From Hexactinellida sp. DTS-2022 (lineage: Eukaryota > Porifera > Hexactinellida): DNA of 64,000 nt. Below, piece after piece: positions 8,543 to 64,000 of this stretch (the stretch's first letter is position 1; the number at the start of each line of letters is the position of its first letter). The position numbers and the translations under genes are program-made. The stretch is from assembly GCA_028753945.1 (NCBI GenBank), contig JAPNXP010000002.1, forward strand, positions 9,114,001-9,178,000, written 5' to 3'. The notes beneath the pieces were generated by a model, which was given only the letters and a program-made list of their open reading frames with translations, searched no databases and was not told the origin of the DNA.

Positions 8543-8591
8543 ATCAGCAGGATCCTCATGGACAAGTTGTATGCGACATCCCCGATCTAAT

Positions 8592-8654
8592 CTCTAATTC
8601 AGCTCTACAATTCAGTACAGTGCTTCGAAAAACGCTCATGGAAAAAGGAATTGC
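8592..8654. other. Unpaired spacer at the palindrome centre
   Basis: 63 bp between ATCTAAT and ATTAGAT. In the plus frame it is continuous with the gag coding of the right arm, so it is the one single-copy part of the retroelement and marks the inversion point. Confidence 0.85.
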
Positions 8655-10916: not shown

Positions 10917-11636
10917 GGTTAAATTACGGCAGATTCACCCAAAAAAACACATGAATTTAGTTTTGAAGGTGGGAGTTTGAATTTCACATATATGATGGAA
11001 GACATTATAGCTATATCGAAACTGAAAACGAAATCTAATTATCTTCTATAAATTCGAAATTATTGGGCTTGCAGTATTATGCTAATACAAAAGTCCCATA
11101 GGGGGAATTTTTCAGACTCCACCTGATAAGTGTGTGGTTTGCAAGATCATTATTTGCTAAAGACTTGTACTGTGTGATCTATCAGATAGATCATCGTTAT
11201 GGGCGGTTGGTGGACGGTTTAGAATTTTGATAAGATCTAAATAAAAAATATTGCGACCTTTTGAAACCAAAAAATGAATAAAAAGGTCATCTTTTTATGC
11301 GAAATTTGATTAAATGCTTGATAAAAAAAAATCCAAGTCATAATTCAAAAATGTAAACCGTCTACCAACTCCTTACGCTTATAATCTCTAAATATTGATT
11401 CTGATAACAAACATTGATGGCCGCATTGCCAAATTACCGCATAATATCTACCACTACTTTTAGAAATCGCCCTATGGGAGATTTGTATTAGCCAAATTTT
11501 GAAACCGACAAAAAATATAAAGTATAATAGATAGGGACATTTTCTTTTCGGTTTATTGATTTGTATCGTATAGGTATGTATTTCTCACAATTACAGATTA
11601 ATACAAGAACTTTCATTCACGTGGGGTAATTTAACC
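10917..11636 (+). mobile_element. TTAA MITE family A, copy 2
   Basis: 720 bp between TTAA at 10913-10916 and 11637-11640, inserted in the right arm only. The left arm still has the intact target (reverse complement GTATTTAAGGATCGC near 6330), so TTAA is the exact target duplication. It is nearly identical to copy 1. Confidence 0.95.
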
Positions 11637-14740: not shown

Positions 14741-15366
14741 TTAAGAAGGATCCATTGAGAGGTTCAGATCCCTTATCAGATCATTCAGTTCTAATTGATC
14801 AAAGAGTTGAGCTGTCGATGAGGTTCCTTCAAAGTCACTGGTACTGCTGTCACTGATGTTGACATCTGCGTTATGAGTATTGTCTGATTCCTCATATTCC
14901 ATGGTGAGTTCTAGCATTTTATTGAAAGTGGGAATGGTAACCTCTTCTGAGTGAGGAACGGGTCTTCTTGCAGATTCTAGATCACGGTATGTCCAACAGC
15001 TCTTGTTATTTCGATTGATTCCCTTGATGTTCACCATACAGAAATAACAATCGTCAGAATGGTTTTTTGGTTCTCTCCAAACCATTGGTACACCAATCTT
15101 CAAGCTTCGCCTTTTTCCACAAGTCCATTGCCGCAAATGCTCCATACAAGTTTCGCATATTATATGGGGGGCCCATGACTTATCCTGGTCTCCAAGCTTG
15201 ACTTCAAAGTAATCCAGATATGCCTTCTTAAGGAATTCAGAAATAGATTTCATCTGTTCTTTCATGGTATATTCACCACAAATATAGCAAAAAACGTCTG
15301 GATTATTCAAACAGCTTCTTCGTGATGAAGCGCCTTGAGGTGGCTTAACTAAAGAACTATTTGCTA
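14741..15366 (-). CDS. Cysteine-rich protein of a widespread unnamed family, truncated exon
   Basis: The exon follows ATTGTAG (3' splice-site-like) at about 15367 and ends at a stop at 14741-14743. It encodes NNPDVFCYICGEYT, HIICETCMEHLRQWT, VPMVWREPKNHSDDCYFC, a RRPVPH motif and an acidic tail ending LNDLIRDLNLS. Three CxxC pairs suggest metal binding. I recognise the family as common, multi-copy and uncharacterised in arthropods and some other invertebrates. Known members continue well past the DLIRDLNLS segment, so this copy is cut short. Function unknown. Confidence 0.65.
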
Positions 15367-16415
15367 CAATAAAAAATCAATTCTATAAATTAACGGTGTC
15401 CGGATAGGTTTTTACGCAATTTATAATGGTAAATTATTATTGATTCATCATAACTAATTGTGATATATAACAAGTATCTAAGATGGCATTTCTAAGAATA
15501 ACTGCACTTTAAAAAATTCAAATTTCAAAATGTAGGAAAATGTAAATAGAATTTCTAAAAATGGCTTCTAATTGACCGTAACATAGTCTAATAGGCTATA
15601 ATCTTTTGTAGAAGCACTTCCCAACTTCTAACTAGTTGTTGTATAAGAAATGGAGTTACTTAGAAACCTATCCAACTTGCGATAACAATGAATTTAATTT
15701 TTTCTCCTCGATTTTTCTACTGTTTTCGATTTAAAGTCCACATTTCTTCAATTTATTGGGAAATTTCACACAATTTGTTCCTATATTCAAACCCAAATTA
15801 TAAATCACTCATTCTACTGACTATTTTTTAAAGATATACTCATGTTATTGACAATGCAGTTGAGTTTGTCACGATAACTCAATGCATTCCATCAAAACTA
15901 AGCTTTTAAATCAATTTTTATTATTCTTTGAACGAAGCTTTTGAAAATTAGGTGTTTATTAGTTCTAATGTCTCAATATAGTCACTTACTAACATTCCAT
16001 TTCGATTCCAAAGTGTCTTAGTATGCCCCCGCAATATATTACTTCTAGAAAAAACTAGATAATCTCTACTCTTACTCATACTCTACTCTTAAAATTTCCA
16101 GGATATCGGCGAAATTTGTATTTTTTACCATATATGGAGGTGTTGCAATGTCATATTGTGACAATTATGCCTGACAAAATCAAAATTAAGATTGGAGGAC
16201 AAATATTTATGTCATTAAGTGTATATTTAGAAGAAAAAAATATTCCGGTGGAAAAATGAATTTCGGTAATTTGAGCTATCCGGACACCGTTAACATCAAA
16301 AATCATTATACTATTTTATATAGCTATAAATGAAACATACATGAATGTGGCTCAATAATATAGTTATAATGCTTAATTATTACCATTGCTTTAACAAAAT
16401 TCTTAATAAGACCCA
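15367..16415. other. No gene recognised
   Basis: AT-rich, with one CCATATATGG-AGGTGT box near 16130 that links the stretch to repeat families C/D. No upstream exon of the cysteine-rich gene could be found. Confidence 0.35.
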
Positions 16416-28644: not shown

Positions 28645-31566
28645 TGGCAAAGGCTGTACGCTTCAGGGTGCGTTGCATTATTTGTAATGAAATATTTCAA
28701 AACGATTATTTTGAAAACATACAAAATCTAAACATAGAGATTTAGACTTGTCTGGTCGCATAGTACCGACTACAGTTATTCTTGAAGAGAGTGTTGGTCG
28801 ACTAAGGACAATGGATTCATTCTTTAGTTCCGGTGTCGACGCCCCTACTCTGAAAAGAACAAGAATAGAAATGACAGAATCTTTTGAAAGAGAACTATTG
28901 ACTGAAGAGAGGTGTTCTAACATATCTGATACTTTTGTATTTCCCAATACACATACTCATACTGATTCTCAAAAGGAAATCCCCAACGAAGAGATAAGAG
29001 AGTTTGATGAAAGTGAAGGGAGTTTGATTGGTGAGATGTCTGACGAGATCGATCCAGCTGGACTCGACGACATCGGCAAAGGTATTTACTAATTGTGTTG
29101 CAATTAATAAGAATTTTGAAAATACATATTAATTAGGTTATTGTTGGGGACTTGTATGTTAACCATATATATATATGTTTAAGATGGCACAATAAATACA
29201 AATACTATTAATTACTATAATAAAAACTAATTTCTACCGTGCTCAGCTGTATATAAATTATTTGATTTTATTCTTATCTTAATTTTAGATACATTGAATG
29301 ATGAAGACAATGTTAGCAATGAGTCGGCGAATTTTCGAATGCAATCTAGTGCGATAGTTGATTGTCTAGTTCAGAAAGATATTTCAACGTCGAAAGACTG
29401 TCATCCAGTACAGCCTCGTAGCATAAAGTTTCCTTTGCATATGATTGGAAAGGTATTCAGGGATTTACTTCATCCCTGTATGATAAATACCCATGGATAG
29501 AGTATTCGGAATGTGAAGATGCTATTTACTGCTATCAATGTAGACATTTTTCCAAAAACAGAAAAGAGCCCACATTTGTAAGCCAAGGTATGCGCAATTG
29601 GAAAAGATGCTTTGGTACCAGAGTTCGTGACAATAAACTTATGCAGCATCAAGCAAGCCTTCAACATGCAGAATGTGTTGATGCTTATGCGCACTACCAG
29701 GATGTAAAGTCTGGTGGTTTTCAATCAGTTGCTGAACTTCAGGACTCTGCACATGCAAAGCTTATCACAAAAAATAGGAAATATATGCGCACAACATGTG
29801 AAGTTTTGCTGCTGACTGCTCAACGTAAAATTGCTCAACGTGAGACGGGTAGATCATTTCGAGTTGATGACATCAACGAAGAGGATCTCGATTTTGGTCC
29901 ATCTTGCGGAAATTTCCTTGCTATACTTTCTCTTATTGCTAAACATGATCCAGTTGTTGCAGAAAGAATTCACTCTGGTCCTATGAATGCGAAGTACACC
30001 CACCATACAGTTCAGAATGCCTTTTTGGATATCATGAAGGATATGATCTTAGAACAGATAAAACATGAACTTCATGAGGCGGAATATTTCACATTACTTG
30101 CAGATGAATCTAAAGATACCAGCAAAAAGGAACAGGTAGTTGTTGCTGTACGATACTGCTTCAAAAACGCTATCCACGAAGAATTTATCGGTATTGCTGA
30201 AGCACAAAGTTTGGATGCCAATGGGCTATCCGATACCATTATCCACCAGTTAAGAAGGATTGATGCGAACATGAAGAATTGCATTGGACAAGGTTATGAT
30301 GGTGCATCTGTTGTCTCTGGTCATTTGAACGGAGTTCAAAAGAAAATTCCTGAAAAAACTGGTTGTCAAATGGCCTACTACATCCATTACTTTTGTCACA
30401 GATTAAATCTGGTTATTGTCGATGTGGTAAACTCAGTTAAGTCCGTTGGAAATATGTTAGGACTTTTCAAACAGTTACATTCATTTTTGAGTAGTAGCAC
30501 TGTTCATGTCAGGTGGGAGGGAAAACAGGAACTCCATGGTGTAAAAAAGATGGAGATAGGAAGATTTTCCAATACTCGATGGTCGTGTCAGGCGAAACAG
30601 TTCAACGCGGTATGGAAACGCATCGACATCGTTTACGAAGTACTGCAAGATGTAATCGACAACGACAGCAACATCAGCCGCACCACAGAAGCAACTGGCT
30701 ACTTGTTGCAAATAGATCGCCGTTTTGTCAGATACCTTCTTGTTACAAAGCATATTCTGAAGAAAGCCAAATATGCTTCAGATATTTTACAAAGACCAAC
30801 GAACGATCTCAGTGGGGCCATAGATCTAATTGGTACATTAAGAGAGGAAATCCAAGCCTGTCGCTCTAGAGAGTTTTGTCAAAAGTTCTGGGATGATGCC
30901 GAAGAAGTTGGCGAACGATTAAACCTGCCTCACAATGCACGACCTGTCAGACGAAAACGACTACCAGCAGGGTTGCAAGATTATGTGGTAGATGCTCATG
31001 TTGAAAAAGTTTCAGGAGTTGGATTAGATGAATATTTTTGTGATGTTTGTGAGATCATAGACAAAGTTGATACAGAGCTTCAGAAGAGATTTGGCGAGAA
31101 GAACATTGTCATGATGAGAGGAATCACATCTTTGTGCCCTAGCTCTGCCAGTTTCATGGATGAAAATTCACTCGTCGAATTTGCTAAACTATTCAATGCT
31201 GACGCCAGCACTCTCAAATGTGTAATTGCCACCTTTAAGCACATGATTGGAAGAAAATCGGAGCAAGAAAGACCTAAGAGTCTACTTCAGTTACAGACAT
31301 ACTTGCAGAAGTTAAAGGAAGCCTTTTTTTAACTTCAGCGGATTGCTATAATCGCATGCACTTTACCCGTATCAACTGCTGAGTGTGAACGAAATTTTAG
31401 CTCAATGCGGATAGTAAAGAATGAACTTCGCTCAGTAATGAAACAGGAACGTCTGGACAGTCTATTGATGCTTGGAATTCATCGTGGTCGAGGCAGCAAG
31501 CTTGATTTAGATATAGTTGTCAATAGGTTTAAGGCTAAATTCCCTAATTGTAGAATTGCACTATAA
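28645..31566 (+). pseudogene. ZMYM1-like hAT transposase, recently inactivated
   Basis: It starts MAKAVRFRVRCIICNEIF (zinc-finger-like) at 28645. A probable intron (29082-29288, GTATTT..TTTTAG) joins GLDDIGK to DTLNDEDN. A TTF-type finger follows (YPWIEYSECEDAIYCYQC..C), then DUF4371-type RNase H-like sequence with LLADESKDTSKKEQ, RYCF and GQGYDGASVVSG. A single frame runs 580 codons from 29590 to 31332. The C-terminal hAT dimerisation part (LPVSTAECERNFSSMR..) is in another frame and ends at the stop 31564-31566. Frame changes lie near 28715, 29450 and at a T run near 31330. Family members are hAT transposases and ZMYM1-like proteins. Confidence 0.85.
29082..29288 (+). other. Probable intron of the ZMYM1-like gene
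   Basis: GGCAAAG-GTATTT and TTAATTTTAG-ATACATTG bound 207 bp of AT-rich DNA. Removing it joins two acidic stretches in one frame (IGK-DTLNDED). Confidence 0.6.
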
Positions 31567-40469: not shown

Positions 40470-42347
40470 TTAATGTGAACTGTGCGCCTGCTTCGATTTG
40501 ACGTGTTCATCTAGTCTTGGCTCGATTGAGGAGAGTGCGACACGTAATGGAGACCTAATATCCAGTTAATTTCTATACTTTGTTTTTATAACACTCATTG
40601 TTGAAAATCCCATCTCACAAAGGTAAGTAGATGGAAATGGGAGAATAACTTTCAGAGCCAGCTCGCAAAGTTCTGGATATTCGGGTCTAATTTTTATCCA
40701 AAATTCAGCGAATGTTACTTGACTGTCAAAAATATTTTTTAATCCTACATCCCCAGCCAGTTGCAATAAATTGTCTTCTAAATTAACACTCAAATTATCC
40801 TTCAACGGCAAAAAGGGATTACAGATCCAACCGTTTCCTTTTCTAGGATCTTGCTCTTTGGGGAATTAAAATTCAAAACGCTCAACTAGTGATTTCAAAT
40901 GTTCCCCTGTGACATTTCTTAAAGATGTACCATCAAGTCCACTGTCACTAGCTATGGTTTCTGCTAAATTTGTAAACATATCGTAGCAATCTCGTGAGAT
41001 CCACTCTTGCCATACAACTAGCTTTCGTTTAAAACCGTCAATTTTGTTTATTGTTATAAAATTTGTTGCCATCCTACCCTGCATTGACCTGTTGAGCTCA
41101 TCAAGTATTGCGAATATATCAGACAGATATGCAAGTTTTGCATTCCAGTTTATATCTCCAAAATGTTCGGCCCATTTGGGTCTTTTATCCTTCAGAAATA
41201 TTGTTAGTTGGTTTCGTAGCTCAAAAACTCTTGATAACACTTTTCCTCTGGATAGCCAACGTACTTCAGCATGCAAGAGGAGTCGAATATGGTCAGCCCC
41301 CATCTGATCACACAAGGAAGCAAATAAGCGTGAATTCAAAGCATTCGCCTTTACATAGTTCACAACCTTCACAACTTCATAAAGTACATGGTTGAGTTCC
41401 GCTGACATCTTCTTTGTAGCTAGGATTTCTCGGTGAATAAGACAGTGTGTTGACTCGCATTCTGGTGCTACTTCTTTAATTTTTGTAACAACGCCCGAAT
41501 GTCGAGTCATTGCAGCCGCTCCGTCAGTACATACTCCAACACAAAATTTCCAAGATAGTCCTGATTGATCAACGATATAGTCATTCAAAGCTTTGAAAAT
41601 TTCAGAACTAGTTCTATTTGTTGGCTTTGAAATCGAACAGAGATACTCTTCTTTCACATTACCACAGTGATCGAAACGGATATATAATAGCAAAATAGCC
41701 AAATTCGCCACGTCAGTAGATTCATCAATCTGTAAAGAATACCATTTGGCTGATTTTATTTGTTCGATCAGTTGTTCTTCCATGTCACAAGCAAGATCCC
41801 CTATTCTTCTAGCAACTGTATCGTTTGAAAGTGGAACCCGGGCAGTTATCTTTGCTGCAGACTGACCCAACATTTCTTGGCAAACATCACCAATACATCC
41901 AACCAATAGCTGTTCTCCAATAATGTAGGATTTTTTTGCCCTGGCAATACGTAGAGATACCTTGTATGAAGCTCGCAGTGCTGAAACATTTGTGTGAGAG
42001 GAAACATACATTTGTTTCTGGCTGCCTTTAAATTCTTCACTCTTTCTTTGGAAAAACTCTATCGGCTTTGAAATCAAATCTTTGTGTTTCGTTTGTAAAT
42101 GTCGACTGAGTTTTGAAGGCTTCAAAGCTTCATTCGACAAAACCTCACGACAAACAACACACTGAGGCTTTGGTAATTCACCATCACAGATGGAAGTAAA
42201 TCCAAATCGGATGTATGATATGCCGTATTTCCGGGTGATTCTCGTACATCTTTTGGTGATAGGTTGTTTATCGATAATTACATTATCCTCATCATCTTCT
42301 GAAATATCGTGATCATATTCCCGATTATTTATTAGAAAAGTATCCAA
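40470..42347 (-). pseudogene. ZBED5/SCAND3-like hAT transposase with two in-frame stops
   Basis: One uninterrupted phase of 626 codons (stop at 40470-40472). It has an N-terminal BED-type finger (CVVCREVLSNEALKPSKLSR followed by H..H), WYSLQIDESTD with the catalytic Asp, GVCTDGAAAMTRHSGV, CLIHREILATKK, EVRWLSRGKVLSRV, and the C-terminal hAT dimerisation block (LCEMGFSTMSVIKTKYRN..ALSSIEPRL). The only defects are TAA codons at 40866-40868 and 40566-40568. Length and domain order fit hAT transposases of the ZBED/FAM200/SCAND3 type. It looks recently dead. Confidence 0.93.
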
Positions 42348-42356
42348 TTGTCCCAG

Positions 42357-42650
42357 CTTTCTTTTGGCCTTAGCAAATCTCGGTTCAATAAAACCAAATA
42401 AATTCTAGATATTTTGAAAGGTACATTCTTTTCTAACAATATTACAATTGAAGCCCTAACATATTGTGGAAGATAATAATTATGTTTATATTTCACGCTT
42501 ATTGGTTTATGTTTGTAGAATTGATGAAATTATATCAGCATTCTAGGAAGTAGAATAAGTGATCATAATTTGTTAATTTTGAATGAAAGTTAAGGAAATT
42601 CTATATAATCCCCCAAATTGTGCAATAACAACAACAAATTGGTGATTGAA
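42357..42650. other. hAT 5' subterminal region
   Basis: Non-coding, between the transposase start and the right terminal repeat. It probably held the promoter; no specific box can be assigned. Confidence 0.35.
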
Positions 42651-49274: not shown

Positions 49275-49869
49275 AGTGGGTGACGCTTAACGGCCATCAC
49301 AAAGAATAGTAAGCTGCTCAATTGTAAAAGCATGTTACTCAAGATAAATAATCTTCGGTGGAGTGCCCCGATAAGCGAATCGCGCCCCGATACGCGGGGT
49401 TATTTTTAATGGGAAAAACCAAATTCCCAACCAACTGCCCCGATACAAGGGGTGCCCCGATACGCGCATGCCCCGATACGTGGGGTTCTACTGTTGCATG
49501 TTACAATAAAGCATTATATTTGGTGGTAGGTTGTTTGACAGTGCCTCCAATAGAAAGTACATGCTGACGGCACAGCTGTAACTCTTGAGTTTTCCACCCA
49601 CTTATTCATCACCATAAAGGTGATAAACCATTTCAGTAAGTTGTTTCGGTAGGTAATGACCGCTTACTGTGTTGGAAGTTACCTTTTATCAGACAATCTA
49701 GTTTAAGTATGCACATAATATGTGAATTGTCAGCATTTTTCTGCGAATGTTACGAGCTCACCCAAGCTTAACCAACACATTCGAATGTCGAATTGACAAA
49801 ATTGTAGAAACAGATTTTGTGACTGTGTCATCATCACCTCAAGGTGTTATGACCGATCAAATTATTGAA
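49275..49869. repeat. Tigger-type terminal fragments, otherwise empty
   Basis: GTGCCCCGATAAGCG, GCCCCGATACGCGGGGTT and ACGTGGGGTTCTACTGT at 49360-49495 are Tigger/pogo end motifs without a transposase. The remainder shows nothing. Confidence 0.5.
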
Positions 49870-50530
49870 TACAGTCAAAGCCCGCATAACGGGGCACTCG
49901 GAAAACGGGGCGCGTGGTCCAAGAATTGGTTCCGCCCCACAAAAATGACTCCCGCAAAACGGGGCGACATTCGCAAAACGGGGCGCATGACCAATCGTGA
50001 TTTTTTGCACATTATATATTGTTTCGTTCCCCTTAGTGTGTTTCTTCGATATCTTAGTTCCTCCCACATGGCCGACGCTCAGATGCCGCCCGTTAAAAAG
50101 GCCAAGAAAGAGCAGCTCACACTCGCGCAACGCCTGGAAATTCTCGCGAAACTCGATGCTGGCGCTTCGGAAAGAACACTTGCCAACGAATTCGCTGTTG
50201 GCAAAGGCAGCATCGGACGGATTAAGGCCAACCGGGACAATTTCGTCAATGCCGCGGACTCTGTGCCCACCAACACGCTGAAGAAGCGCAAGCAGGTCGA
50301 CCCGAAGCTACAGTACGAGGACATCGAGAAGGTTGTGGTGGAGTGCCTGAGGATGGCTAGAGACCGCGGACTGGTGGTGACCGGTCCCATGTTGCGCACT
50401 ATAGCGCTGGAGGAAGCCGAGAAAAAAGGAATCGCTGACTTCTCGGCTTCTGAGGGGTGGCTCAGCCGGGTGAAGCAGCGCTACGACATCGTCGGAAAGG
50501 CTCTGTGCGGAGAAGCAGCAGCAGTCGACC

Positions 50531-51754
50531 CAGTGCTGCCAAGTGAGTTCAGATAAATTCCTGGAGATTGACCATAAAATTTAAGGAGAAACAAAAGTTT
50601 TTACGGAGCATGCTAAAATTCCCTCTGCGACCCAATAGTTCTTAATTTGCTTTTTCAAATAATATAAACTAACTATTTTGTATGAATAATCATTTATAGA
50701 GGTAGATATATGGACGCTTTCGCACTTGTAAACAATAAGATAAACTCACTAATAGTATGTATCAAACTATCAAAGTAAGATTTAATTTAAGGTTCAGGTA
50801 TACTCTAGAGCACTTCTACCAAAAGTATTTACCCGAATGATAAAAAATTTTCACAGCGGTTTACTTCATCCTCAGGATGCCAAAAATACAATAATATTGG
50901 CAAATATAGTAAGAGAGGAAAAATGTTTTTTTTATTCTACCATTTTTGCGGAATAGATCAATCAGCAAAGATAAACAAGACCAAGAATATTATTGATAAA
51001 ATGTGTATAACTGGATGTAATATAACTTTTGAGAACAGGAATTGTGAATATCTACATTTTTCTGGATTTCAAATACTTTTATGTGATGTCGATTTTCAAA
51101 TGAAGATTTTCCTTATCCAAAATCCAAAAAACAGATGAACTATTCATATTAGGGTAAATCGCAGCACTGAAAAGTTGTATCTTGACGAGATCTCTCCGAA
51201 ACCGTTGAGTTTTTGATTCTAAGACCAAAATTGACAAAATGACTTCTTCCGCAATTCTGAAAATGTTAGTTTTGAGATTGCGGCTTTTGAAAAAAAAAAT
51301 TACAGCAATTATTCCTAAATTTAGGTGACCAAAGTGTGTCAAACTGGAAAAATAATAGGAATATTTCTTAGAAATCTCTTGAGAGTACTCATTGGTATCA
51401 ATACAATCCCAAAATGCAATCTAAGAGAAATAGACAATGATTTGGTTTTTATCTAAATATTCGAAATTTGTAGAGTATACCTAAACCTTAACTAATTTGT
51501 AATTGTGCAACTGTTTTGAATCAAGAGTATTCTGATATTGGAATAATTCATCACTATGATATTATTTAACATATTATACAACATAAATAATGATATTGTG
51601 GTTCACTAGTAAAACAAAAAGCAGTTATATGTTATACAAGAAGTCTTAAATATATTTCGCTAGAAATACGTAGAAATAAGTCTTCATACGTAGACACGTA
51701 GATAGGGGTATATTTACGTAGTCTACGTAAATTTACGGAGACTTGGCAGCACTG
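50531..51754. mobile_element. hAT MITE inside the Tigger gene
   Basis: The ends CAGTGCTGCCAAGT and ACTTGGCAGCACTG are perfect inverses. Perfect 8-bp duplications AGTCGACC lie at 50523-50530 and 51755-51762. Without the nested family B copy it is about 523 bp. The right part has ACGTAGA/TACGTAG iterations. Confidence 0.95.
50791..51487 (-). mobile_element. TTAA MITE family B, copy 3
   Basis: 697 bp between TTAA 50787-50790 and 51488-51491; GGTTCAGGTATACTCTAGAG ... GAGTATACCTAAACC. Nested in the hAT MITE, so it is the youngest of three layers. Confidence 0.93.
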
Positions 51755-52858
51755 AGTCGACCCCATCCTCGTGGCCGACTGGAAGACAGTGCGCCTCCCG
51801 GAGATTATCAAGGACTACAAGGAGTCCGATGTATTCAACTGCGATGAAACGGGACTGTTCTTCTTACAGTCTTCCACCCGCTCTCTGACTATGCCTGGAG
51901 ACGATGCCCACCGCGTAAAGCAGGACAAAAAGCGCCTCACCCTCCTGTTAACGGTTTCCTGGATGGGAGAGAAAGAGAAACCTCTGATGATCTGGAAGAG
52001 TGAGAACCCGCGTGCCCTGAAGGGGGCCGACAAGAGCATACTCCCGGTGACGTACCGCAGTCAAGGAAAGGCCTGGATGACCATCCCACTGTTCAAAGAG
52101 TCGATCAAACAGTTCGATTCTCACAAACACTCTCAGGGAAGAAAGGTGCTGCTGCTCATGGACAACGCGTCGGTGCACAGGATCGACGATGCTCAGATCA
52201 AGCGTTTGAAGGCCACACAGATCGCCTTTTTCCCAGCCAACACTACATCACAGCTCCAACCCATGGATGCTGGGATCATCCAGGCCTTCAAGTTGTACTA
52301 CAGGCAGAGCCTCCACTCCCACATCATGCACAAGGTGAAAGACGACATCACGTGCAATCCCCTGAAGGACGTCACCATCGCCTTGGCCATCGTGTGGGTC
52401 TTCCGTGCCTGGTACAAAGTGAACCCTAGTACTATCTCCAAGTGCTTCGCAAAGTGCGGCTTCAAAGGTACAGATGACACCGGAACGGCGGCTGTCACGG
52501 CCGATCTGTCCTCCCTGAACTCGCGGCCGGTGATACTGAGGAACTGGCTCTGAGCGCTGCCGAGATGGAAGACAACAACATATTCCCACCCATCGCGAAG
52601 GCAGAGGACTTGTTTATCGAAGCTTCTGACTCCTTCGATGCTGAGGCGCAGAGAATCGCAGGGCAGGGGCTCATGGTCAAGGCTGGTCTGGATGCGGAGG
52701 AGGACAAATCTGATGATGAGGCTCAGATCTCGACCCCCACTTCCAAAGCAGTCATGGAGGCAGTGAAAACAATCCAGCTGTACGCCATGGCCCGCGGGGA
52801 TGAGCAAGTCCTGTCCTCCCCGGTCGACCTGAACCACTTCGTGTCAATTTGGCCATAA

Positions 52859-53400
52859 AATTTGAAGAATGCAACGAAAAGCTTATACAACCCTACAAAT
52901 CACAGATCTGTTGCATGATATTCTGAGACGCGTGAGATTTTGAGACGCCTATGTGATACACTAAATACACCATGGATGTGCTATTACAAATTATACAGTG
53001 ATATTTTGAGAACGCTATAAAAGGAAATTTTTGGCTTATTTTTACTTTTTAATATGAATTTAAGAATAAGATAATTTTGAAACGCGTGAGATTTTGAGAC
53101 ATTGTATTACCAAACCATGGATGTGCTATTAGAAATTATACAGTGATATTTTGAGACGCTTGAGATTTTGAGACATTGTATTAGCAAACCATGGATGTGC
53201 TATTAGAATTTATACAGTGATATTTTGAGACACTACTATAAAATTAATCTTTGGCTTATTTTTAATTTTTATTATGAATTAAAGATTCTAACAATTTTGA
53301 GACGATAGTAAAGATAAACCAGATACATAGATGTGCTATTATATATTCTTTTGAGGCGCTGGTATATAACAATTTCTGAGTGATTACCTGTTTTGGACGG
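52859..53400. repeat. GAGACG tandem repeat family I
   Basis: About four irregular units of GTGAGATTTTGAGAC, CATGGATGTGCTATTA and ATACAGTGATATTTTGAGA. An inverted fragment of the same family closes the window at 63880-64000. Confidence 0.7.
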
Positions 53401-53629
53401 CACACTATATGTTATATTCTATCTGCAATAAGTATCCCTTTTAAATTAATTTAAATTACTGATAATTATAGCAACTTAAAAACGCCCAATTTCCAATGTA
53501 TATCTGATTTGACTAGTTTTCCTAATCTACTAATTTCCCAATTCACTATATGGTTATAATATTAACAATTGAAGAGACACAAAACAAAAACAACTATTAC
53601 AAACAAACAGATTAAACATACTAAATTAA

Positions 53630-54504
53630 GGTTCAGGTATACTCTAGAGCACTTCTACCAAAACTATTTACCCGAATTAATTAAATTTTTTACAGCGGTT
53701 TTACTTCATCTTCTAACCGGCAAAAATGCAATAATATTCGATCTGGGTAACTCAGTGAAAAATTTTTTTTCTAGAAAATCGTATTTTGCGGGACGTGTAG
53801 GTTTTTTCCTGCTAATGATTAGGAGTAGATTGTTGTTGCATTGCATTAAGAAACTTCTAAACTATCATATGAGTGCAAGAATTCTTTTAATCACTTATGA
53901 GTCAAATTTTTCATCAATAAATGTGGACATCACTTTTTTCATCATCAATAAATTAAATAAAAATAAAAATAAAAGTTACAAATGAAATCGCTGCACTCAT
54001 ATGATAGAACTAATTGAGATCTGTCCAAAACCGTTGAGATTTTGTTTCTAGGTGGTATATGAGTCATAATATGACTTCCGCAATGGCAATAATTGTGTTT
54101 GGAGATAGCGAGGTTTGAAAAAAAGTGTCCCCTATGGAAGTGGTTTAGGTAGAGGACACTAAAAAGTCTGTATCATTGAGAGTTTTCAATATTCTTCCAT
54201 AATATTTGAAATTAAGATGCGATATATGCTGTTCTATCCAAATATAAGATAAAACCTATATGTGGCAATGTCCCGAAATTATCAAGTTTCCATGGTATAC
54301 TGCAACCGGCAACCAACACCAGAACCCCAATATTTCTTTCAAAACTCGAAGTGAGTCAAACTGGAGAAATAATTGGAATTTTTCTTTGAATTTTCGTCAA
54401 AGTCCACATGGGTATCCACACAATCCGAAAATGCAATAAAAACGAGATTTACCATAGTATGGGGTTTATCGAAATTTTGGGATTTTGTAGAGTATACCTG
54501 AACC
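53630..54504 (-). mobile_element. TTAA MITE family B, copy 4 (diverged, 875 bp)
   Basis: Between TTAA 53626-53629 and 54505-54508; GGTTCAGGTATACTCTAGAG ... GTAGAGTATACCTGAACC. It is longer and more diverged internally than the other copies. Confidence 0.88.
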
Positions 54505-54579
54505 TTAATATAAATGAAACCTAATAATAAATACATAAACTAAATTAAAAAACACAACATTAAATAAATTATTATAATA

Positions 54580-54775
54580 CCCCCAACAAAACCCCCCTCC
54601 TTCGCCACAGCCTCCTCCTCCTGTCCTCCCTCCTCCTCCTCCTCCGGCTCATTCCCTCCCTCAGCAGTCCCCTCAGGGTAAGAATTTCCCCCTCCTTCCA
54701 AAAGGATATCTCCCGCCATTTTCTTTTCTCCCCTTCCCAATCCCTCCTCTCCCCTTCCCACTTTCTTAAATAGAA
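54580..54775. repeat. Polypyrimidine tract (CCT/CTCC-rich)
   Basis: Almost pure C/T on the plus strand (CCTCCTCCTCC, CCCTTCCC) for about 190 bp. The glutamate- and glycine-rich minus-strand frames there are a by-product. Confidence 0.8.
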
Positions 54776-54779
54776 GATT

Positions 54780-55490
54780 AATAAATATAATAGTAACATT
54801 TAAATTATGTAGCTTTGTTAGCTATTACTTATAGTTATTAAATGTTCACAGACAACCTACGAAATTCTAATACACAGTGTCAATTACTTCAATTGCCAGC
54901 ACTTAACTTATCTGATTACGATTAACAAAATAATACAAACAAAATATTTCTAACAAACTATGTTGTTACGAAATAAAACGATTTTTAAAAAATGTTTGAA
55001 CCTTTTTATTTCTCCTGAATTTATATAATATATAAATTAATTTCAGACGACTTATGGTTACTAGCCTACCAATATAATAGCTAAAAGAAATAATCACAAC
55101 GATTAACTTATTTCTAAACTATCAAAGTTAAACTTGGAGAATGTCTAGAAAGAGATATACATATATTTATAAGATCAGTAAAAGGTAAACTGTTTTTACA
55201 ATCAATTTTGATTGTATTAACCAATTATTATTTTTGGGGGCCTCCTCCTTTTCCCCACACAGCCGCCCTATCCTCTCCATTCATACAGAGGAAACCGCAT
55301 ATCTATATCCATTCAATCGGCCCCAATTTTTAAGTTAATTAGCCTTCGTTCGTATGTGTGTAACGACATAACAGAATGAGCATCGCATTGATGCGCCCTG
55401 ATAATGCGGTTCCCAGTGTACAAAAAAAAACTCTCAAAGGAAAATAGGTTACGGTACAGTAAATTACTCAAACTATGAAATTAAACACTA
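54780..55490. other. No gene recognised
   Basis: AT-rich, with GGGGGCCTCCTCCTTTTCCC near 55240; no coding motif. Confidence 0.35.
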
Positions 55491-55493
55491 TTA

Positions 55494-55725
55494 CAGTGAA
55501 CTCCAAGTCTGCTATAAATCGGCTTATCACAAAGTTCAATGGTCCGGACATCCTTATATTTGACTATACTATAATCAAATAAATTGATATATGTAATCTC
55601 TTTTTAACGAAGATATTTCTTACCCCATAAATTTCTGAATAATTAATTTTAATCAGCTTATAATAAATTCGGTGTATACAAATATTAAATCGATGTACGC
55701 AATTCGTTATAACGGGAGTTCACTG
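55494..55725. mobile_element. Tigger-like MITE with TA duplication
   Basis: TA at 55492-55493 and 55726-55727. The ends are CAGTGAACTCCAAGTC and GTTATAACGGGAGTTCACTG. It is related to 1332-1742 by the GTTATAACGGGAGTT end. Confidence 0.8.
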
Positions 55726-55899
55726 TACTTAATAATATACGATGTAACAAAGTTACATCGTGTATGGTGGACTTACTAAATAGAAACTAATTAATTACTT
55801 AGTATAAAGTATATTAGTAGATAATTAAAAATGTTAACTCACTTGATTCCACAGATAATTTACCTACATACATGTCGTCAGTCTTTTGCAACCTAGATC

Positions 55900-56065
55900 G
55901 TAGATAACAGCTCGTCTTTCGCCACTGGGGATGTGCCGTTGCAGGTCACGTTTCCATAATCTGGGCTCACCATGATTGGGATTGCGTGCCTGAATAACCT
56001 CGAGCAGAGGTCCCCACAAAGTTCGATGTACATTGCCTTTGAGCGCTTTCGATAGAGTGTTGTGA
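55900..56065 (-). other. Possible extra exon downstream of the OTU segment
   Basis: One minus-strand frame reads LSKALKGNVHRTLWGPLLEV then IQARNPNHGEPRLWKRDLQ and ERRAVIYDLG without stops for about 50 codons. Its frame differs from the OTU frame, and splice signals are weak. The amino-acid composition looks coding; family unknown. Confidence 0.35.
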
Positions 56066-56069
56066 GCTG

Positions 56070-56640
56070 TTATTCAATCGTTTGGACATCATCTGAAATA
56101 GTTCCATATGTCTTGTAATTCGTGATCAGCATTGATACAACAGGTTGATAGTGGTCGAAATAGTTTTGGATATAAAGGATGGCTGTAGGCTTATCTGTGG
56201 CTCTGTGTAAACTCCAACGCACCTCGCGAATTAATGAGTCTTTCGGTGTGTAGAAGTTATTGGCAATGTAGACATCGGCATCATGAATAGCAGAAGCAGC
56301 ATAAATTTCCACATCTGTTCCCCAAATGGATTCACGATTCATAAGTCTTTGTGTGCTAAGGTATTCACACGGTGTCGTTCGTTTGGTTTTAAAATACCAT
56401 CCTAGTTTCCTTGTTCCTTCACTGGCGATAAAGCGAGAGATGATGGAACGAAGATGTAGGTGGCTTTTTCACTCCCAGTAATTAATTTGGATATGCATCG
56501 AAATAGACAATTACCATCTCCTTCGATATGTTCCGCATCGCAAGGTTCAAAATCGCTAAGTAACTTCCCAACGCTATTAAGGGTAATCTGTATTGATATT
56601 CGGGCGTTCACGGTGAATCTCAGAATTGCATAATTTACTA
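56070..56640 (-). pseudogene. OTU-type cysteine protease segment, one-base frameshift
   Basis: The minus strand reads HIEGDGNCLFRCISKLITGS (the OTU Asp-Gly-Asn-Cys active-site box), then after a frame change SHLHLRSIISRFIAS, PCEYLSTQRLM, IWGTDVEIYAASAIHDADVY and YFDHYQPV, where the His-Tyr is the usual OTU histidine. It stops at 56070-56072. The shift lies in the AAAAA run at 56464-56468; six A would keep the frame. It is about 170 codons, normal for an OTU domain, which cleaves ubiquitin in studied members. It lies 2 kb downstream of, and on the same strand as, the spliced integrase gene and may be its C-terminal part. Confidence 0.75.
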
Positions 56641-57639
56641 CTAGGAATACTCTAGATGAGATAGAGATTGACTTCTATGATTTTTTTTTTCTTAATTTTC
56701 AATCAAGATGGTGTTTTTTAATAAAATAAGACGTCGACTTCCTTATATGGGCATGACATTTTTTCAAAAATTGTTGAATCTTTTTGAATTTTTGAACATA
56801 TTATTATGAGACTATTTCCTCTCAGTAATAATTTTTATTTTATTTATTTTTGCAGAAGAAACGATGCTAAAGGGCATTTTTTCAAAATAATCATAAAACG
56901 CAGTCGTGCACTAAACTATCGTTATAAAATGTTAGAAGAAAATTTTTTCAATTCTAGTTCAAGGGTCTGAGGATGCATCATGTGTTACCCCAGAGAAATT
57001 TTTTAACTTTCTGATTATTATTTTTGGTTTTATAAGCATTCTAAGGCTGCGGCCCACGAATTTTTCCGAATTTCAACATCAAAAGAGGTGATAAAATTCT
57101 ACACTGCCATATATTGTTCCCAAAATTAAAAATTTCGGAATCTACAGGTCAAAATATACAGGTTCACGTCAAAAAGTTCAGGAATATGTCAAAAATTAGG
57201 AAATTAGGGGCATAAAAGAATATGAAGGGTATGCAAGTACCCGGTGATCATATATTACTGTGGGAAATTGGACAGCAGAATAATTCTGTTATTCTTCATA
57301 AAAATGCGCCAGCTTCTTATCTATGCGTAGCATTTGTTTTCAACACTTTTACAATAATATATCATGAGTTATGACCAATTTATGACTATGGTTTTGTCTG
57401 TTTTGTCATATTTTCACACCTCAAGGCCCTCAAATATACAATAAAGTATTATATAAAACACCAATTTGGTAATACAAATATGGAAATAGCATTTGCGCAC
57501 AAAATGAGACGTTACACAACACGATCCAATCATTATTCGATAAGTTATGGACTTTTGGGCCACAGAAGGGGGCAAAAAATCTGACATTTCACACCTGTTG
57601 ATATTTCAGAAACGCTTTGAGATAAAATGATCATAGGCA
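56641..57639. other. No gene recognised
   Basis: AT-rich with no coding motif; possibly intronic if the OTU segment belongs to the upstream gene. Confidence 0.35.
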
Positions 57640-58010
57640 TTAGAAAATACTGTAAATACCTGACTTTCTATACGTTTATAATACATTTTAGGACTCTAGG
57701 TGTCACACTTTTTAACATGACCATATATGGTAATTTGATGTGCCCAATTTTGATGACGAAACAAATTTTGTAACTCTTGATCTCTGGACAGCAGAGACTA
57801 GCTCTAAAATTCTAGTCACATCATGATACTATTTCTTACTCATTGGATAAACTTTTGGGATTATATTATAATTCGAATGATGTGTTCTGATTTCAAATGC
57901 CCAAATATGGTGGTGTCAAAGTGGCAATATGTTAAAAAGCTGACAAAAATCCAACTTCTGATCCAAATGAGATAGAGCTTAGCTCTAAATTTCTAAAAAT
58001 AGTCTAATTC
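57640..58010 (+). repeat. Dispersed repeat family C, copy 4
   Basis: ACTTTCTATACG, TAATACATTTTAGGAC, GACCATATATGGTAAT, GATGTGCCCA, TTTTGATGACG, CTAGCTCT, then CCCAAATATGGTGGTGT. The second CArG box has one change. Confidence 0.65.
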
Positions 58011-58608
58011 AATTTCAAATGACATTATCTATTTTATGCAGTTTAGGAACTCCTTTTCCTCGCACTTTCATATTCTGGACTCAGCCACTTCGACACAAAT
58101 TAATTAAATGCTAATTATGAAGGTGTAAAAAAAGACCATTTGGGCATATGGATGTAAAAAAGAGAATTTTTATTCTAGAAAGTCAAACTTTTTTTTAAAA
58201 TGCTCAGTATATGTAGGCGCATAGTTTAAAAGCGGGCAGTTTTGGCAATATAATACAAAAAAATTGAATTAGTATACTTTTAATGAAAAATAGTGGGTTT
58301 TTTTTGACCAATTTCACAAAAATGACAATAACATAGAGTAGATTAAAGAAAAAGCATATTTCGGTTCGATTTAAAACATTGAGTATTGACTCAGGTATAT
58401 TTTATAATTGACATGTTTCGCGCTAAAAACTAACATAAAAATTTTTTGTAAATATTTGGCTAGTATGGATTAGGCCTATATTGACATTGTCTGGTTCATA
58501 ACTAAGGATATATACATAGTAGAACTCTAATATTTTCAGGGATATCTTGGATATATTAGTACTATCCAAAAACGCAATAAAAACATTAGGTCGTCGGGTG
58601 TCAAAATA
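58011..58608. other. No gene recognised
   Basis: AT-rich DNA 3' of the integrase gene's last recognised exon. Confidence 0.35.
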
Positions 58609-61600
58609 TCAGTACAGAGCACCCTTAAATGGTTGTCTACAAACTGATTCAAATGATATCCCCAACATATCGCATTTACTTCGCTGCCAATTTTCATCTA
58701 TCACTGTGATCCTTGGGTCCATCGGTGTGTCGTAGGGATTACGAAGCGGAACTGCGTCGTGAAATGATTCCCATAGCATTGTGTTTAGATACTGCATTCC
58801 CTAAAATATTAATTTGTTTACCATTAAATAAATATAAGAATTATTACAGTGGAGCCTCCCATAACGGACACTCCAAATAGCGGACAACCTCTAAATAACG
58901 AACAACCCTCGTGGCACGGATTTATTTATTTAGCATATGTCTAATAGAAAAGCAACCTCTAAATAGCGGACAACCTCTAAATAACGGACAACGGTTCCGG
59001 TCCCAAGGTGTCCGTTGTTCAGAGGTTCTACTGTATAATGTAACAACTTGCTTTGATATACTAAACAAATATATACTAATTAAAATTGAATTGAGTTGTA
59101 TGAGTGTATTGGTAGATAGTTTTGACTTACCAGGAAATACAGTACTTTGTGTGTGTATCTAGCACGTTGGGTATCTGTATAGCTGGGGTAGAGTTCTGAT
59201 GTCCATCCGAGTATAATCTCCATAATATCTCTCTTCTACAATAAATGGGTAAAATGGTAATTTGTAGTTATCGTATGAATCATTGTTAATTAACCGTAGA
59301 CTGCCGGTGTGATTTTCAGGAAATTAACTTAACTTGTAGTTCTTTGTATATAATATGTAGAACCTATAAATTTGAAATCCAACAAGAGCACAATAATATA
59401 TTAATATTACGAAATTTTTGAACAGATTTATTCGAGGATTTAGACAAAAAGTGATGGCACATACTTTCTCTTTAAATAGATATAACGCCGTTAATATATA
59501 AGTAATCCTTTGTTTCTAAACAGGAACAAATACGACTATCTTATTAGTTATCAGATCTCAAAATTAGAACAATTCTGCATCAGGATACTAAAGTTACGTC
59601 ATTTTCATAAAAATGATAAATCTGTATTTGATGAACCATGGATTACGAAAATATACATATATTTGAGTTATATCTGTCACAACTCTATATTAGTCCACCC
59701 AAATATCCTAAAACAGATAAGATTAGTCTAATATCTTCTTATGGGTATTCCCACGGTGAGATTTTCACATTTCTTATCTACAAAAGTAAGAGACGGGCAA
59801 GTGGAGCAGTTCACTTTTATGCTACGTCATCATAAAAAATTCTGAAAATTTTGATTTTTTGATTGAAATCGATTGAGAATACAAAACAATGTCCAAATCC
59901 GAATTTTCTCGAAATTTGAATGATTAGATCGACATGTTTCCCTCCTGACACAACGTGTATCAGTTAGGCAGTCTACTGTTAACTTACAACTTCCTCTTTT
60001 TTTCCACCATCCAAATACTCGAATAACATCGTGTTGGGAGTGTAGCTGTGCGCTTTGTATAACAAGTGGTTCAGCTCTTCATGTAGAGGAGTCATGAAGG
60101 TCTGCCCACGTATATTCTGCATTAGGATTTCCTACAAATGACAACATTGTAATAAGAAAAATATTATGGAATGTTACAAATATTCTGGATTGACGTCAAG
60201 AGAAGGTGTAAAGCGAAAATAACAATGAGTGTTAATAAAGATTACACTAAATAAATTAGACTATAGATGTGAAACGGGAAGCTTACTTTTAAGTTATTAA
60301 GGTGTTGAAATATAGATTCCGTAGAAAATCCGAAGAGATTCTGGTACATCTAAAAAAGGAATATTTTACTATTAACACTATTTTATCTTTTAAATAACAA
60401 CTCAATCACAATGAATTTACCTGTGAGGTGTTGATTCCGATGCTAGTATCGAGGCTTACTTTCTTCTTAGTATTCTTGGGACTAGAGGATCTTTCGAAGT
60501 AAGCTCTTGTGATATGGATTGGAATCTTTTTGTCCTTCTTCGTTCCTAATTCTGTTTGAGAAATTATAACATGGCTTTCTGTTGATTTCGACACCGTATA
60601 AGGCCCGAGATGTTTCGTTTGCTTCTTTGTTTTGGGCATGTGTTTTATTTTGGGCATGTTGGTATAGATGATCTTATCACCCTTCTTTAGAGGTGTACTA
60701 ATTACAGAGATAATAATTATTATCGAAGGAATGAATCGAACTTTAGTAACAAGATAGACTGTGTGTTATGTATGAATTAAATATCGTCAGCAGTTCAACT
60801 AACCGACTAGTGTTAACTTTCTTATCATATTGTATCTTCTGCTTGAGTTGTTCAAAACTGATGCAGTCCATAGCTGATTGCTGTGTTGAAGTTCTAGATT
60901 CATCGATGTTGCTAACTGCTTCGAGGGGATTATCAGGAGGTGGGCAAAATATGTCGTTTATACCTTCGGTATCATCTAGTGGATCTGTGAGTTCTGAGAA
61001 AATCGATTCTTCCAAATCAAAGTCTTCCTCATCGTTGGTATGCAGGTCGTTAATGGTGGACAAGAGATCTTGATGCCGGGACTCTCTTCCCAACATAACC
61101 TTGAATGGAGTTTGTCCGAGGGATCTTTTCTTGCAGGAGTTCATTGCAAGCACAGCCTGTTTGAGCAGTTTGGACCAATGATCCCCTATCTGGCTCTCCA
61201 TTTTATTCAGTTTTCTATATGGATTATTCGTAAATTGGTCTTAAAATTATATTACAAAATACTAACTGTTTCAGAATCTTGTTGTGCGCTTCGACTAAGC
61301 CGTTAGCCATGGGGTGGTAAGCACGAGTGCTACGATTGTCGATACCCAATTTCTGGTTGAATTCCTTAAATATCTGTTAAGGTTCAGGTATACCCTACAA
61401 AATTCGAAAATTTAGATAAAATCCAAATCATTGTCTATCTCTCTTTTATTGCATTTTTGGATTGTATTGATACCAATAAGTACTCTCAAGAGATTTCTAA
61501 GAAGAATTCCAATTATTTTTCCAGTTTAACACACTTTGGTCACCTCAATCTAGGAATAATTGATGTAAATTTTTTTTTCAAAACCCGCTATCGCAAAACT

Positions 61601-63719
61601 AACATTTTCAGATTTGTGTAGATAAGAAACTTTTTCAGTTTTGCACGTAGAATCGAAATCTCAACGGTTTCGGATAGATTTCGTCTAGATTAATCCTGTA
61701 TCGTTTGCGATTTATTAAATTAGAAATATTTGCAGAGCTTTGCGGATTTTTGATAGGAAAATTTCGATTAAAAAGTTGACATCACGTAATAATCAAGAAA
61801 ATTAAAAATATATTAAATTTGAACAATCCCAGACGATGCAGGATAAACAAGATATAGATAAAAGCATTTAAACAGTATTTACTATTGTAAGGTTCTTTAT
61901 TACTAAAAAATCTCTTACACAAATGAGTAAAATTTGAAAACCTAAAATTTCCCAGTTACTTGTCATTTAAATATTATTGCATTTTTGCAAATAGAAGGAT
62001 GATTCAAATCCGCAGTAAAAATTTCAAGTTAATGGGGTAAATATTTTTGGTAGAAGTGCTCTAGAGTATACCTGAACCTTAAATACAATAAATAAAAATA
62101 CAATAAATAAATACAATAAATAAAAATACAATAAATAAATACAAATAACAATACATACTATAATATAATTATAGTATGTTAGTGTGTAAAATTAGCTACT
62201 TATGATGATTATATAAGTTATTTAATTTTAATGAATTAATATGAATGAATTACAGGGGCGGCATACCCGGTACGGCGAGGTACGGCGAGCCGTACCTCGC
62301 CGTACCTGCCGCCGCCTTACCTGCCGTACCTTTTAATATCCCGCCGTACCACTTTTCGAAAGGGTGTGCCGCGCCTGAATTACAGTATTACATTATACTA
62401 CTCACATTGCTTGTGAACTCTTTGCCCTGGTCGTGCTGGATAATATCAGGTAATCCCATATCCAGATAGATGTCCTTCAGATTCTGAATAACTTCTTGTG
62501 AAGTCTTAGTCTTGAGAGGGCGTACTGCAACATATTTGCTCAGGTAGCATACAGTGACTAGAACGTGTTTGTAGCCGTCTTCACTCTCAGGGAGGTCGCA
62601 TATAAGGTCCATTCCTATATGTCTCCACGTTTTAGAAGGAGGTGGTATTGGTTGGAGTTTCTTTTGCGGTTGAGGTGGCAAGGCCGCTGTCATCTGACAT
62701 ATATGGCACGTCTTTACCTTTATAATATAAGAAATCCATTACTATTGTATGATTTAATATGTACAAAGCTAAGTGAATACGTAGTTTCTAATCATTATGA
62801 ATTTAGGATTATTTTCGAACGAGATACAGCCACATTTCCTTATGTGCCACTTGTCCCACAAGTAGCACGTGACATAGACACAGATGCCGCTTCATGGATA
62901 ATTATTGGATAAACATGACTGAAAATCATAATGTTATGATATTTATAATTATATTACAAGATTAATTAAGTCATTTGAGAGTAGTTTAATCCAGCAGAAT
63001 TTATTACGCAAACGAGAAGTATATTGTAATTCAGAAAAAAAAATTCAGTTCTTCAAATAGTTTTCGTGGGTTAGTATACATTTTGTTAGAATACATCACA
63101 ACATTTAAAATGATTCAAAATTAAATAGCCCATTTGAATAATAAAAATAATTATGGTTCAAATGAAACGAGATAGGTAGGAAAATTTGATTAACTATGAA
63201 CAAATAGAGAAGTGGTCCGAACAAAGATGGATTATCCTTTATAATAATGTCACTGTAAATGGCAAGTGGTCCGGCCATGACCGAACCACGTGCTACATAG
63301 GAAAGTATACCGGATAATTTAACTAACATATTCTTTAACGTCTTGGGAAACGCTTGCCCATGTGTATCTTTGCTGAACTGAATGTAGGGTCGTATTTATT
63401 CCGGGATGACCGACTTCGTCATGGAACTTCTCATAGATGCTGTCCAACTCAGACTGCAATGGAACTGCCAAATCTGCTTCTGTGCCTTCCAGTTTTACTC
63501 TCTAAAGGGAGAATTCAATTAAACCATGGAATATATAAAAATGGTCTAGGGGAATAAGGAAGTCAATATTACCTTGTAAAGTCTGTTGGTATCTCCAATA
63601 AAATAGGAAGACACTCTTCTTTTGTAGTTCCATTTTGTCTGTCGTGAAGCTTGAGATGCTTCAGGATATTTTTCTTCACGAAGAAAGTGAATGATTTCGT
63701 CATATTCATTTGGATTCAT
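58609..63719 (-). CDS. Ginger/gypsy-type integrase gene, ten exons, intact as spliced
   Basis: Exons read from the start: 63719-63573, 63501-63328, 62717-62406, 61373-61267, 61214-60804, 60697-60421, 60349-60287, 60131-59988, 59235-59131, 58800-58609. All introns are GT..AG; exons total 1932 nt, 643 residues plus TGA. Domains: N-terminal MNPNEYDEIIHFLREEKYP; H2C2 finger HX4HX29CX2C joined across an intron (HDEVGHPGINTTL, then KTCHICQ); integrase core with GMDLICDLP, QHDQGKEF and GLVEAHNK, exactly 35 residues between second Asp and Glu; TPLKKGDKIIYTN and GPY module (KHLGPYTVSK); then about 170 residues I do not recognise. The multi-exon structure and following OTU segment fit Ginger DNA transposons or a domesticated relative (GIN1/KRBA2-like); LTRs are absent. 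No ends were found inside the window. Confidence 0.82.
58847..59033. mobile_element. Tigger-like MITE in the last intron
   Basis: TA at 58845-58846 and 59034-59035. Ends CAGTGGAGCCTCCCATAACG and GTTCTACTG; internal GCGGACAACCTCTAAATA iterations. It lies between exons 9 and 10 of the integrase gene. Confidence 0.8.
59495..59978. mobile_element. TTAA-flanked family G, copy 2
   Basis: 484 bp between TTAA 59491-59494 and 59979-59982. Its end lies about nine bases from the 5' splice site of the exon ending at 59988 (GTT-GTAAGTTAAC), so the TTAA target overlaps the start of the intron without changing GTAAGT. Confidence 0.75.
61381..62078 (+). mobile_element. TTAA MITE family B, copy 5, at a 3' splice site
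   Basis: 698 bp between TTAA 61377-61380 and 62079-62082. On the minus strand the element ends CTGAACC, then TTAA, then CAG, and the exon starts at 61373, so the MITE sits within seven bases of the intron's last base. It shares its orientation with copy 1. Confidence 0.9.
62083..62170. repeat. AATAAATAC microsatellite
   Basis: ATACAATAAATAAA-type units, in the same intron as family B copy 5. Confidence 0.75.
62256..62375. mobile_element. Small GC-rich MITE in intron 3
   Basis: TGAATTACA repeats at both sides (62246-62254 and the copy ending 62384). Ends GGGCGGCATACCC and GGGTGTGCCGCGCC. The interior is CCGTACC/GGTACGG palindromic repeats. The 9-bp duplication would suit a MULE-type element, but 8 bp cannot be excluded. 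Confidence 0.65.
62718..63327 (-). other. Intron 2 of the integrase gene
   Basis: Bounded by GTTAGT (63327 downward) and AAAG before 62717. AT-rich, no repeat recognised. The 115-codon and 74-codon frames overlapping it are chance. Confidence 0.6.
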
Positions 63720-63879
63720 TTCGAAATAAGAATAGATTTGTTTGCTTGTTTGTTTGTTGTAAATGAATAAGACAATTAATGCATATATTAAATGTCTTAT
63801 ATAGTAAATTTGATAGTATAGGGTTTATCTATATTATGATATGAAAATCATAGTATTTTTAATTAAATTCATAATAAAA
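63720..63879 (-). promoter_or_regulatory. Upstream region of the integrase gene, no specific box assigned
   Basis: About 160 bp between the ATG and a family I repeat. AT-rich with TTTG iterations; no TATA or initiator can be chosen reliably. Confidence 0.25.
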
Positions 63880-64000
63880 AGTAAAAATAAGCCAAAATTT
63901 CCTTTTATAGTGTCTCAAAATATCACTGTTTAATTTCTAATAGCACATCCATGGTTTGCTAATACAATGTCTCAAAATCTCACGCATCTCAAACTTAAAT
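63880..64000. repeat. Family I repeat, inverted fragment at window end
   Basis: Inverse of the 53.0-53.3 kb array (TGTCTCAAAATATCACTG, AATAGCACATCCATGG). It continues past the window edge. Confidence 0.7.

Follow-up and report, generated by a model that had tools for sequence, protein, structure and literature searches.

A ten-exon integrase gene in a probable glass sponge, very probably the transposase of a recently mobile Ginger1-like DNA transposon

When an integrase gene is found spread over ten exons in an animal genome, is it a host gene domesticated from a mobile element, or the transposase of an element that has itself been moving? The question is raised by a minus-strand gene in a stretch of 64,000 nucleotides from Hexactinellida sp. 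DTS-2022 (assembly GCA_028753945.1, contig JAPNXP010000002.1, positions 9,114,001 to 9,178,000), here called the window, for which a sequence-only reading had offered both a Ginger-type DNA transposon and a domesticated integrase under selection. We are highly confident that this gene encodes the transposase of a DNA transposon which belongs to the Ginger superfamily, has moved recently, bears terminal inverted repeats (TIRs) and comes closest in its anatomy to Ginger1, in what is probably a glass sponge. The first of the two suggestions is borne out by TIRs that start with TGT, 4-bp target site duplications (TSDs), many copies, empty sites and an integrase joined to an OTU protease domain.

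The gene itself runs, in minus-strand order, from exon 1 (63573-63719), whose 49 codons include Y18-P19, Y39 and Y48, through exon 2 (63328-63501) with both histidines of an H2C2 zinc finger, exon 3 (62406-62717) with both cysteines of the finger and the catalytic D144 and D203, exon 4 (61267-61373) with the catalytic E239, exon 5 (60804-61214), exon 6 (60421-60697) with a GPY module (LGPY, judged by eye), exon 7 (60287-60349), exon 8 (59988-60131) and exon 9 (59131-59235) to the native part of exon 10 (58625-58800). Joining these exons at the GT..AG sites, which are present at all nine introns, reproduces the 643 residues without a stop that had been described, together with a finger of the form HX4HX29CX2C, a core with 35 residues between D203 and E239 and the GPY module. 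Both Integrase_H2C2 (7.8e-17) and rve (6.7e-10) are matched over the cut-off in Pfam, and the best matches to solved structures with phmmer are the integrases of foamy virus and Ty3. The tyrosines and proline of exon 1 may represent a YPYY motif upstream of the finger, assigned by eye rather than from a reference alignment, which is partly present in protein P0001 of the glass sponge Oopsacas minuta.

Whilst the ten exons are open as proposed, the end of the gene is not where it had been placed. Neither the stop codon nor the final residues, KGALY, belong to the native gene; positions 58624-58609 lie inside a 2,044-bp nested insert (56581-58624) which has TTAA on both sides and splits exon 10, the codon for the K straddling its edge. 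In L047, the copy nearest to that of the window (long aligned pieces are 97-99% identical), exon 10 continues for 227 codons instead of stopping, and the full product of insert-free copies is 807 residues long, with the H2C2 finger, DD35E core, GPY module and a C-terminal OTU domain, which in the spliced product of copy L029 scores 38.1 bits against a Pfam cut-off of 23.3. The remainder of exon 10 in the window, severed by the insert, is found at 56073-56580 on the minus strand, where the OTU region lies in two frames that score 12.9 and 18.7 bits, each under the cut-off. The window copy is therefore damaged, its integrase part being open and its OTU part broken by insertion.

Around the gene the termini of a transposon can be drawn. 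The copy occupies 52909-64000 on the minus strand and continues as far as 64143, so that the gene-5' end falls 143 bases outside the window; counting its four nested inserts, the copy is 11,235 bp long. A TIR at the 3' end of the gene (52909-53157) pairs with one at 63912-64143, of which 63912-64000 is in the window, at 88% over 249 aligned bases; the repeats are thus some 250 bp long and the element has the ends TGTTG..CAACA, so that the TGT-type repeats which the sequence-only reading had proposed to look for below 56000 and beyond 64000 are indeed there. A TSD, GATC, stands at 52905-52908 with its partner at 64144-64147, outside the window, and 74-bp tandem units are found in a sub-terminal position at the 3' end of the gene (53074-53231).

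The remaining three nested inserts are likewise flanked by TTAA, a duplication that is the mark of piggyBac-type elements. They are a 698-bp insert in intron 3 (61381-62078), a 684-bp insert in intron 8 (59295-59978, the right edge uncertain by one base) and an 875-bp insert in the 3' region of the element (53630-54504). The 698-, 684- and 2,044-bp inserts are absent at the corresponding place in all 20 of the copies that were fetched from the genome, and the 875-bp insert is absent in all 15 of those that align there. Intron 3, which holds the 698-bp insert and parts the second catalytic aspartate in exon 3 from the glutamate in exon 4, as had been pointed out, is 1,032 bp long in the window copy, as against 154-330 bp in the 20 others. 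The inserts at 61381-62078 and 53630-54504 share the termini GGTTCAGGTATACTCTA, with one base different at one end, and are thus two inserts with common ends nested in one transposon copy.

The genome from which the window comes (112.4 Mb in 18 contigs) was searched, and the family proved to be large. Exon 5 recurs over its full length, or close to it, in at least 36 places, the window included, at 83-99% identity, with one further place at 73% and at least 16 places at 65-68%; these are hand counts from the search listing and lower bounds, partial and more distant matches also being present. The 20 fetched copies (10 kb each, L029-L048) all come from the 96-98% end of this list, and in every one both ends of the element could be located, starting TGTTGCATGATATTYTGAGACGCG, the 3' end of L048 fitting least well. 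The element is 6.1-6.9 kb long in 17 of them and 8.1-8.4 kb in the other three. This 24-base terminus has 195 matches in the genome at up to two mismatches, and the reversed control has none. With gap-free mapping, the 807 codons are free of internal stops in seven of the 20 copies (L029, L031, L032, L033, L037, L042 and L045), five of which have all splice sites.

Mobility is further indicated by the sequences on either side of the element. A perfect 4-bp TSD flanks 16 of the 20 fetched copies, in all cases of the form GNNC, as is that of the window copy. Of 105 exact termini that do not have C eleven places upstream, 100 were surveyed for their flanks, not all of them independent, as some are paired ends of a single element; GNNC was found in 91 of these 100, with GGCC in 27, and the fifth base out is A in 89. 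As a T stands on the far side of the TSD in 15 of the 16 copies with a perfect duplication, the target is the palindrome AGNNCT. When the two flanks of copy L038 were joined with one GGCC kept, 40 scored rows were obtained among 452 candidates, and 38 of them cross the junction uninterrupted at 94-100% identity; the other two are L038's own flanks, and matches extend 12-33 bases past the junction. The L038 element therefore inserted into a dispersed repeat whose copies elsewhere are without it. Termini at C1:6519755, C2:3018209 and C2:4480815 of the same assembly (G000) share one flank, ACTGTTAGGCC; either several elements have entered a dispersed repeat at the same position or a site that was already occupied has been duplicated.

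The case for the introns comes from a comparison of copies. It had been argued that the spacing of the catalytic residues could be right only if the splicing is real, which is a good argument that does not suffice alone; it is the other copies and a 68%-identical subfamily that carry the case. Across the 20 fetched copies the donors are GT at 180 of 180 sites and the acceptors AG at 175 of 180. Divergence within this near-identical set (0.4-3.6% in exons, 1.1-3.3% in six introns) is uninformative as to exon and intron. The subfamily is represented by a single copy, L050, of 1,081 bases. L050 keeps the acceptor of intron 3, and its introns 4 and 5 are at the same place and in the same phase as those of the main family, although their lengths differ (88 against 52 bp and 69 against 106 bp). 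Plain identity in this pair does not tell exon from intron (74% in exon 5, 69% in intron 4 and 81% over the 69 aligned bases of intron 5), whereas codon positions do: over the 260 codons of the joined frame of exons 4-6, differences at positions 1, 2 and 3 number 40, 34 and 97. The estimation of dN/dS that had been proposed was carried out on the same 260 codons and gave a dN of 0.15, a dS of 0.93 and a ratio of about 0.17; the joined frame has been under selection. Among seven of the near-identical copies the mean ratio over 21 pairs is 0.36, a rough figure since L042 is included.

The host is probably a hexactinellid, as judged by protein matches to the transposase. The four best matches among database proteins are from Oopsacas minuta, which leads again in two further protein searches, beside P0014 and P0017 and weak matches from Nesidiocoris, Tanacetum and Silene; none of the three brought up a protein identified as a Ginger1 element. 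Oopsacas P0001 and P0028 are 53-55% identical to the transposase over residues 70-300, P0028 ends in what is by eye an OTU-like stretch, and in P0016 the same integrase tail is followed by the beginning of an OTU domain, at 15.6 bits and below the cut-off. These predicted proteins are alike in sequence to the transposase, are deposited as integrase, OTU or hypothetical proteins, the source giving one of them the name Gypsy retrotransposon integrase-like protein 1, and were compared as proteins alone. When 39 integrases were placed in a tree, the seven sponge-type sequences, namely L029 and six proteins of Oopsacas, came out as a single group, with support of 100/99, apart from the remaining 32, of which 21 have a reverse transcriptase (RT) domain among their listed Pfam domains; as the set holds no sequence identified as Ginger1, the tree does not address membership of Ginger1. 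Left out, with fewer than 150 or no residues aligned, were eight of 44 database proteins (P0003, P0004, P0012, P0014, P0016, P0017, P0019 and P0027) and three of five frames from the sponge's own genome.

Could the gene nevertheless be one that the host has kept for a role of its own, in the manner of GIN1, GIN2 and Imagin? Those genes are multi-exon and derive from Ginger1/GIN-type transposases (PMC3424704, PMC12863088 and PMC2836005), and many exons, an intact catalytic triad and a dN/dS below 1 are what a domesticated gene would have in common with ours. The low ratio is explained by selection within the transposon lineage, and GIN1, GIN2 and Imagin are settled host genes without terminal repeats, whereas the sponge element is multicopy with TIRs and TSDs. 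The sequence-only reading had itself named many near-identical, intron-bearing copies with terminal repeats as evidence against domestication; such copies were found, together with locus-specific TSDs and empty sites, and the OTU part is disrupted at the very locus where the gene was noticed. The domesticated integrase of the sequence-only reading was for these reasons abandoned, the family being neither low in copy number, nor free of terminal repeats and TSDs, nor fixed at one locus, and it seems to us highly improbable. We consider it just as improbable that the locus is the remnant of a Ty3/gypsy retrotransposon whose apparent introns are insertions. The integrase, H2C2 finger and GPY module are common to Gypsy elements, as the structural matches would remind us, yet the termini are inverted and not direct, the intron positions are kept in the subfamily copy L050, and the sponge-type transposases stand apart as a group in the tree. 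Furthermore the 807-residue product matches integrase and OTU families only, with no RT or RNase H, in a domain search that covered the product rather than every frame of the element; outside the gene, leaving aside frames over its exons, L032 has no frame of 80 amino acids or more and L033 has one of 82. Inverted termini, an integrase/OTU-only product, the tree group and the lack of another long frame in these two copies led us to reject a Gypsy origin.

It is less simple to say how the element relates to Ginger1, which according to Bao, Kapitonov and Jurka 2010 (PMC2836005) has TIRs of 40-270 bp, TGTNR ends, a length of up to ~7 kb and a transposase of 500-800 residues with integrase, GPY and YPYY followed in several families by OTU, in others by Ulp1 or neither, and was known in 2010 from four animal species. 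The sponge element shares the H2C2 finger and DDE integrase, GPY, C-terminal OTU, TIRs of ~250 bp at 88%, TGTTG ends and a 4-bp TSD, the TSD length being given also in a later paper (PMC10045372), which counts 23 Ginger1 and 30 Ginger2 autonomous entries in Repbase, and the lengths of the sponge element and of its TIRs fall in the published range. It would therefore be conceivable that this is a canonical Ginger1 family, unusual in its host alone. The published TSD, however, is CCGG (75%) or CCGT/ACGG (24%), and neither CCGG nor CCGT/ACGG occurs in any of the 100 flanks, where the target is AGNNCT; furthermore there are nine introns here as against 0-4 in Table 1 of PMC2836005, in which the introns are GT-AG in some families. 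We regard a canonical Ginger1 as unlikely, and because of the TSD sequence the element is filed as a Ginger1-like variant. Ginger2/TDD elements are similar in their TGTNR ends, TSD of 4-5 bp and integrase-like transposase, but are described in the same paper as being without GPY and YPYY and as targeting RTATAY, whereas the sponge element has GPY and targets AGNNCT.

Together with the difference in target, several observations weigh against a Ginger1-like transposon with the gene as drawn. Four of the 20 copies are without a perfect TSD, the flanks of L029, L039, L043 and L046 differing at one base. With gap-free mapping, 13 of the 20 have a stop or a change of frame and five of the 180 acceptors are not AG (in L037, twice in L039, in L042 and in L048), and an indel in exon 6 of L042 shifts the mapped edge so that its 807 codons include some intron bases. 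Finally, the splicing as drawn is something that we infer by comparison of copies.

If the Ginger-superfamily transposon is as we describe it, its messenger would be spliced over the ten exons and the transposase would be expected to bind the termini and the sub-terminal repeats. The DDE core would then join CA ends to target phosphates with a 4-bp stagger, the GPY module perhaps helping the complex to assemble, and the OTU domain might strip ubiquitin from the transposase or from repair factors; the authors of PMC2836005 suggest that OTU activates repair factors. Such an element would move as DNA only, which may be why its introns persist. Introns as such are unsurprising, since Ginger1-like elements are called multiexon DNA transposons in the Imagin paper (PMC12863088), but their number is surprising, and if the host is a glass sponge a transposase with nine introns stands out, the genes of Oopsacas having 1.59 introns on average (PMC10280926).

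We would tentatively suggest, as an idea with better prospects than a canonical Ginger1 though one that we would not yet favour, that the family represents a distinct Ginger lineage, marked by nine introns in the transposase, of which at least two keep their place in a 68%-identical subfamily, by presumed movement as DNA only and by an AGNNCT target rule. Such a lineage could be given a rank of its own next to Ginger1 and Ginger2, and would imply that a GIN-like multi-exon structure can be taken over complete from a transposon; the family bears on whether the introns of domesticated GIN genes already existed in the transposon. It is furthermore good material for the question of how Ginger1 leaves its donor site, stated to be unknown in the Discussion of PMC2836005, since it has moved recently, some of its ten-exon copies are open, its empty sites are clear and its target rule is simple. 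A literature search, with Repbase and subscription papers outside it, found among the papers listed, judged by titles and the starts of abstracts, no work on Ginger1 in hexactinellids or other sponges.

In the window as a whole there was nothing at gathering score in Rfam, and a 211-residue open frame at 14741-15376 with several cysteine pairs is without a Pfam match at 0.001. An element at 49726-52553, about 350 bp away from the Ginger-like copy, has frames at 49726-50556 that carry Tc5/CENP-B-type DNA-binding domains, the CENP-B match being just below the cut-off, and a DDE_1 endonuclease frame at 51756-52553, which we take to be of the Tigger/pogo type. Long frames at 29422-31332 and 40866-42404 match DUF4371, one above and one below the cut-off, presumably as in hAT-like transposases. 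An inverted repeat at 6328-10918 covers Gypsy-type frames for gag-protease and RT-RNase H; its two arms, each 2,264 nt long and separated by 63 nt, are reported to be 100% complementary. It is either an artefact of assembly or an inverted duplication of very recent date.

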